From NCBI GenBank assembly GCA_958295905.1, contig OY282382.1, positions 5,018,910 to 5,082,909 on the forward strand: 64,000 nt of DNA. The letters run 5' to 3'. The translations under genes and the position numbers were made by a program. A model generated the notes under the pieces. That model did not search any database, was not told the DNA's origin, and was given only the letters and a program-made list of their open reading frames with translations. Shown piece after piece: positions 36,476 through 59,664 of the stretch (the stretch's first letter is position 1; each line of letters starts with the position of its first letter). This stretch comes from an uncultured Vicinamibacterales bacterium (lineage in GTDB: Bacteria > Acidobacteriota > Vicinamibacteria > Vicinamibacterales > UBA8438).

Positions 36476-36524
36476 GAACGAGGCGCTCCCGCAGCCCCGC
36501 GCCCGCCGCGCCGCCGTGTCCATG

Positions 36525-36707
36525 GGGGTGCACGTCAGATTTGTGAAATGACTGCCCCGGCACGGTCAGGTTGGCGATTTTCGTGCCGTTCTCGGCTTCG
36601 AGGCCCTCCCGAACGGGTCCTTTGGGGCTTTGGCGCCATGGGATGCCTCGGGGCCGGCCACGCCGGATACTCCAGCGGCGGCGCCTCACTTTCTTGACGT
36701 GCACCCC
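36525..36707 (+). mobile_element. MITE-B copy 1, intact with target duplication
   Basis: Perfect 13-bp terminal inverted repeats, GGGGTGCACGTCA (36525-36537) and TGACGTGCACCCC (36695-36707). They are bounded directly by a 7-bp duplication, GTCCATG (36518-36524 and 36708-36714). The element is 183 bp and has no coding capacity. A diverged inverted copy lies at 59313-59485. Confidence 0.9.
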
Positions 36708-36787
36708 GTCCATGGATGGCGCTTGACGCCGGCGGTCCCTCGATCCGACAGCCGGCGGCCCGTCTCTTGCATGGAATACGATAGACG

Positions 36788-59312: not shown

Positions 59313-59485
59313 GGGTGCGCATCAAGACAGCGAACGCCGCCGTTGGAGGTATCCGGCGCGGCCGGCCGAGGCGCCCATCGCGCCGAAGCCCGAAGGCCGG
59401 TTCGGAGGGTTCGAGGCCGAGAACGGATCGAAATCGCCAATCCGGCAGCGACAGGGCGGTCGTCTCGAAATCTGACGCGCACCCC
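59313..59485 (-). mobile_element. MITE-B copy 2 (inverted, diverged)
   Basis: The reverse complement aligns over its whole length with 36525-36707, including the ends GGGTGCGCATCA and TGACGCGCACCCC. The terminal repeats are now imperfect and no target duplication remains. A MITE-A element is inserted at its right end. Confidence 0.8.
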
Positions 59486-59490
59486 GGCGG

Positions 59491-59664
59491 CAGGACCATC
59501 CCACACTCCGCCACCGCCGTGCGCAGGCGGAATCGTGGCGGGTCCTGAGGCTCTGGACGTGCGGAATCGTGGGTCTCACGCGGCGCCGGCCCGCCGGCAA
59601 GACGGTGGCGACCCCTCGAATCGGGGGGCGAGCCGTCACGTGCAGTCAGCGTGGGACGCCCCCG
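59491..59664 (+). mobile_element. MITE-A copy 5, intact with 9-bp target duplication
   Basis: 174 bp from CAGGACCATCCCACACT to AGCGTGGGACGCCCCCG. Flanked by CCCCGGCGG at 59482-59490 and 59665-59673. The left duplication includes the last four bases of MITE-B copy 2, so the insertion is nested. Confidence 0.88.

Follow-up and report, generated by a model that had tools for sequence, protein, structure and literature searches.

MITE-B elements in fixed register with promoters and an ISKra4-family insertion sequence bound a six-copy citrate synthase-larB unit in an acidobacterial genome

The p-MULT 4 transposases, comprising the ISAzba1, ISMich2 and ISKra4 groups, constitute the ISKra4 family of insertion sequences (PMC3942029). 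Elements of the superfamily carry inverted repeats, 18-39 bp long and closing with a C, and generate target duplications of 8 or 9 bp, and circular intermediates with spacers of 6-10 bp are described in related families (PMC3942029). The ISMich2 group has two frames with a -1 shift, and TnGBS, ISLre2 and several ISKra4 elements insert so that a promoter lies 13-17 bp away from the junction (PMC3942029). Two described systems provide the closest comparisons for miniature elements. MITEAba12 and its co-resident ISAba12 have only terminal repeats and 9-bp duplications in common, while the composite Tn6645 from the same study is bounded by ISAba3 and not by MITEAba12 (PMC6382973). TIME-COMP elements, which are Tn3-derived MITE composites that pick up neighbouring genes, are bounded on each side by a MITE and lack transposition genes (PMC4133298). 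No published ISKra4 MITE was found in the literature searched, a weak negative as most subscription journals and ISfinder lay outside the search.

Here we describe a MITE family, MITE-B, starting from a 64,000-nucleotide window (C1:5018910-5082909) of a 6.3-Mb acidobacterial genome in three contigs. The explanation that we favour as a whole, with a probability of about 90%, is that MITE-B is non-autonomous and is moved in trans by a co-resident insertion sequence (IS) of the ISKra4 family. The features of the window that bear on this reading are as follows.

36517 to 36525, no strand: left copy of the target duplication, 9 bp, TGTCCATGG
36526 to 36706, plus strand: MITE-B element, 181 bp, with perfect 12-bp terminal inverted repeats GGGTGCACGTCA...TGACGTGCACCC
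36707 to 36715, no strand: right copy of the target duplication, 9 bp, CGTCCATGG, matching the left copy at 8/9 positions with one substitution
36723 to 36728, plus strand: TTGACG, a -35-like hexamer 16 bp past the MITE-B end, in the register typical of targets across the family; the -10 is weak here
59313 to 59484, minus strand: second MITE-B copy, degenerate, 78% identity

The boundaries of the element were fixed by comparing left with right flanks of 45 distinct full-length MITE-B copies in registers of 4 to 14 bp. In the 9-bp register the flanks are 64% identical, compared with 32% for shuffled pairs (sd 2.4%; approximately 13 sd), and no other duplication length from 4 to 14 bp comes near this signal. 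All nine positions agree in 12 of the 45 copies when a shift of up to 2 bases is allowed, where 0.4 would be expected. Because the flanks agree in the 9-bp register alone, we place the element at 36526-36706. The original prediction had described perfect 13-bp inverted ends delimiting 183 bp, and such ends are indeed present (GGGGTGCACGTCA at 36525-36537 and TGACGTGCACCCC at 36695-36707), but the register scan corrects the exact edges to 12-bp ends and 181 bp. It likewise replaces the proposed 7-bp duplication GTCCATG, which arose because an ambiguous flanking G/C was assigned to the element, with the 9-bp pair TGTCCATGG/CGTCCATGG; target duplications of 7 or 8 bp are ruled out by the same scan. 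The inverted, diverged copy expected at 59313-59485 is found as a model match at 59313-59484, and its flanks (3/9 positions in the same register comparison) show no recognizable target duplication.

MITE-B is short, lacks a transposase gene, has terminal inverted repeats and occurs in many dispersed copies, and its target duplications are of one fixed length, 9 bp only. A BLAST search of the element against the genome returned 47 matches. A sequence-only model trained on 43 copies returned 147. Some of these are pieces of a single copy or low-scoring, doubtful hits, and the number of separate copies is therefore put at roughly 100 or more. Allowing one mismatch at most and counting both strands, the 13-bp end motif is present 249 times in the genome, compared with 27 times for a reversed control. 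Alignment of these many copies, as the original prediction had proposed, fixes the ends, and their number, shared termini and 9-bp duplications bear out its view of MITE-B as a transposon-like miniature element. Many copies have diverged by 10-25%, which indicates that most insertions are old. Both congeners contain variants of approximately 151 bp that share these ends and have 9-bp duplications, including one insertion site that is apparently common to the two, and the family therefore predates the species. The IS copies and compound units of the present genome, by comparison, are recent.

Some MITE-B copies form tandem pairs separated by exactly 9 bp, at L034:2001-2331 (spacer CCAACAGTC) and L050:5929-6330 (GGCGGCCGG/GGCGGCCGT). 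The units are diverged, and these few pairs suggest repeated insertion beside existing ends. Another abundant repeat (AGGACCATCCCACGCTCCGCC...) has units of approximately 180 bp that are often in tandem and is present in dozens of genomic copies, including sites inside the compound unit described below, where it separates the citrate synthase gene from larB (L050:2361-2706), and at 59490-59600 of the window, adjoining the second MITE-B copy. It may be the element that the original prediction named MITE-A.

An autonomous element with the same ends, for which the original prediction had suggested a search, does exist and encodes an ISKra4-family transposase. The lead came from the motif list, where paired MITE-B ends approximately 3.3 kb apart pointed to a repeated unit. 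The IS is 1,876 bp long, forms the right part of the compound unit and also stands alone. It ends in perfect 19-bp terminal repeats, with GGGTGCACGTCAGATTTGT on both sides, and stand-alone copies are flanked by perfect 9-bp duplications (GGAACGCCC and GGTCCGGGC) or, in a third case, by a duplication matching at 8/9 positions. There are ten full-length near-identical copies (approximately 99-100% identity to each other), six of them inside compound units, together with further copies that are slightly diverged or shortened; other genomic matches to the transposase are all short fragments. The downstream frame matches the NCBIfam model NF033572 for ISKra4-family transposases (299.6 bits, cutoff 205), and the upstream frame is a DUF6788 protein. 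A -1 shift at A_AAA_AAG relates the two frames and would yield a 578-aa fusion, which scores 301.3 bits against NF033572; frameshifting at this site is putative.

In its transposase, its 19-bp ends with a terminal C and its 9-bp duplications, the IS conforms to the ISKra4 family as defined in PMC3942029, and its two-frame transposase with a putative -1 frameshift is like that of the ISMich2 group. Compared with the published groups by description, the system differs in combining this two-frame layout, a trait of the ISMich2 group, with the promoter targeting of the ISKra4 group. The host belongs to the Acidobacteriota, a phylum absent from the list in PMC3942029; a further difference is that the IS shares its genome with a MITE family whose copies number roughly 100 or more.

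MITE-B and this co-resident autonomous IS have the same ends and the same duplication length. The left end of MITE-B is identical to the right end of the IS over 21 bp, while the right end of MITE-B matches the IS over 12 bp only and thereafter differs from both IS ends; the interiors are unrelated. Only the ends being alike, a simple deletion of this IS is not supported as the source of MITE-B. A derivative of that type does occur in the congener G009 (L210:1501-1701), where a 201-bp element consists of the left 22 bp and the right 162 bp of the IS. This derivative is flanked by a perfect 9-bp duplication, CCGGTCCCC, and represents a second, deletion-type miniature element. As with MITEAba12, where the common features of MITE and IS are also limited to terminal repeats and 9-bp duplications, the origin of MITE-B cannot be deduced from its interior (PMC6382973). 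MITEAba12 and ISAba12 differ from the present pair in the kind of IS and in their AT-rich target preference, as opposed to the fixed promoter register of MITE-B.

The parent of MITE-B may be an extinct relative of the IS. Because the IS copies are near-identical while MITE-B copies differ by 10-25%, it is also possible that the present IS came in only lately and was not the original mover. A variant of our explanation, with the same mechanism and another founder, accordingly holds that MITE-B was spread mainly by an earlier, since lost ISKra4 relative, and that the present IS came later and recognizes the old ends. The contrast in divergence, the departure of the MITE-B right end from both IS ends after 12 bp and the IS-end fragments in congeners are all consistent with this history. 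The 21-bp identity between MITE-B left end and IS right end, the equal duplication length and the current use of a MITE end as a compound end argue against it, and we regard it as a real possibility that falls somewhat short of probable.

Insertions of MITE-B show a preference for sites immediately upstream of promoters. We examined 185 junctions, a set enlarged with further copies after TTGAC was noted in the flanks of the first 25 sites. In 16 of the 185 junctions exact TTGAC lies at offset 16, counted from the end of the element, as against approximately 0.2 at other offsets; the set retains those 25 sites, which prompted the idea and so are not independent of it. The -10 core TANNNT is found at offsets 39-40 in 30 of the 185 (approximately 0.5 per offset elsewhere), a peak 17-18 bp past the -35 hexamer, which is the spacing of a sigma-70 promoter. 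When both boxes are scored, 18 of the 60 elements with both junctions present have a promoter in register, compared with 0.93 in other registers. These promoters point away from the element and lie past either MITE-B end equally often and in either orientation (14 left, 14 right). The one beside the window copy is weak, at 7/12 positions. Among the few independent IS junctions, TTGAC is in register at one stand-alone IS and one compound copy. Statistically, then, MITE-B insertions keep a constant spacing of 16 bp to the -35 box of a sigma-70-like promoter, and this resembles the specificity of TnGBS, ISLre2 and several ISKra4 elements in inserting upstream of sigma-70-type promoters (PMC3942029).

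Proximity to promoters, together with the conservation of interior positions in many copies, could also be expected if MITE-B were a structured RNA or regulatory repeat with a host function, kept beside promoters by selection and not placed there by target choice. The clean 9-bp duplications speak against such a repeat, as do the promoter register at both ends regardless of orientation and its occurrence at an IS insertion. An Rfam search of the window gave no match, and the covariation term is negligible (-0.65 of -16.58 kcal/mol), so that the RNA reading was set aside; a host-function repeat of either type is very unlikely.

A MITE-B copy forms one end of a compound unit that has six copies in the assembly, 99-100% identical, five of them approximately 5,150 bp long (~5.15 kb) and the sixth, at C1:5244608-5249576, without one internal repeat. 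Each consists, in order, of a MITE-B copy, a type II citrate synthase gene (TIGR01800, 457 bits, cutoff 421), a divergent larB (NF033503, 285 bits, cutoff 175) and the IS. All six copies end exactly in GGGTGCACGTCA and TGACGTGCACCC, and they are flanked by six different perfect 9-bp duplications, one per copy: CCCACGCTG, GCGCCGGCG, CCAGCTTTG, ATCGACGGG, GGCGGCCGG and GTCGGGCAC. Because each copy has its own duplication, the comparison demonstrates, at the level of sequence, that the citrate synthase-larB unit transposed as a whole, a MITE serving as one end and an IS as the other. A segmental duplication by homologous recombination between repeats would be conceivable in a genome this rich in repeats, where three of the six compound copies lie in or beside other repeats, but the exact common ends and the different perfect 9-bp duplication at each copy leave it with hardly any likelihood.

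As in a composite transposon, the cargo lies between two related transposable elements with duplications at the outer edges. A classical composite has two complete ISs as boundaries; here one boundary is a 181-bp MITE, and we therefore call the unit a MITE/IS compound. It shares with TIME-COMP a MITE that serves as the end of a composite acquiring neighbouring genes, and differs in pairing that MITE with a full IS and its transposase and in carrying a native chromosomal core gene pair in six copies (PMC4133298).

Synteny with relatives identifies the copy at C1:1270101-1275250 as native. On one side are lepA and the signal peptidase gene lepB, the MITE lying in the interval that separates lepA from the citrate synthase gene. 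On the other side, beyond larB, come the IS, the genes found after larB in relatives and, further on, ftsZ and ftsA. The order lepB-lepA-gltA-larB-...-ftsZ-ftsA is conserved in the relatives compared, and gltA and larB are present, mostly close together, in nearly all relatives of the same family. In the readable congener contigs, neither a MITE nor an IS was found in the gltA-lepA interval or downstream of larB. The compound-type citrate synthase is found nowhere else in the genome, the sole other citrate synthase being a 36% relative. The best named matches of the compound-type enzyme, with 80% identity to an Acidobacteria genome, are the ground for placing the genome in the Acidobacteriota. 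At the native locus (L055; C1:1268207-1275250) GTCGGGCAC occurs three times: it flanks the MITE on either side and recurs past the IS. After this third occurrence comes another IS copy, which has a duplication of its own, TGCCACGGT. We conjecture that the third GTCGGGCAC arose when a circular intermediate with a 9-bp spacer recombined back and one unit was then lost.

In the mechanism that we propose for trans-mobilization, the ISKra4-family IS would supply a 578-aa transposase through the putative -1 frameshift, and this transposase would bind MITE ends and IS ends alike. That the IS transposase mobilizes MITE-B is supported indirectly, because a MITE end serves as an end of the compound. The transposase would be guided to promoter regions, and transposition would probably involve short-spacer circular intermediates like those published for related members of the superfamily. 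By sequence, the ~5.15-kb compound transposon has one MITE copy and one IS copy as its ends.

MITE-B alone would be one more member of a kind already known; the promoter register in a large MITE family and a MITE/IS compound that multiplied a native core gene pair go beyond this. Insertion just upstream of promoters, previously reported for TnGBS, ISLre2 and some ISKra4 elements, is thereby seen in a large MITE family from the Acidobacteriota as well. This placement also suggests how the host could tolerate a hundred or more copies, because insertions upstream of promoters miss both genes and promoters. With its native locus, both ends and daughter copies, this single genome provides a natural example of a MITE and an IS making core genes part of a multicopy transposon, and thus of a way for gene dosage to change in settings other than antibiotic resistance. 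More tentatively, and as a possibility that we consider rather unlikely as stated, a promoter-seeking ISKra4-type transposase and its MITEs may form a working gene-amplification system in this acidobacterial lineage. MITEs would pile up all along the chromosome at promoter-upstream sites with little harm, leaving many genes close to an end that can be used, and one IS insertion would be enough to turn the interval into a transposon; the six near-identical units would then reflect an amplification, recent and perhaps favoured by selection, of a gene of central metabolism.
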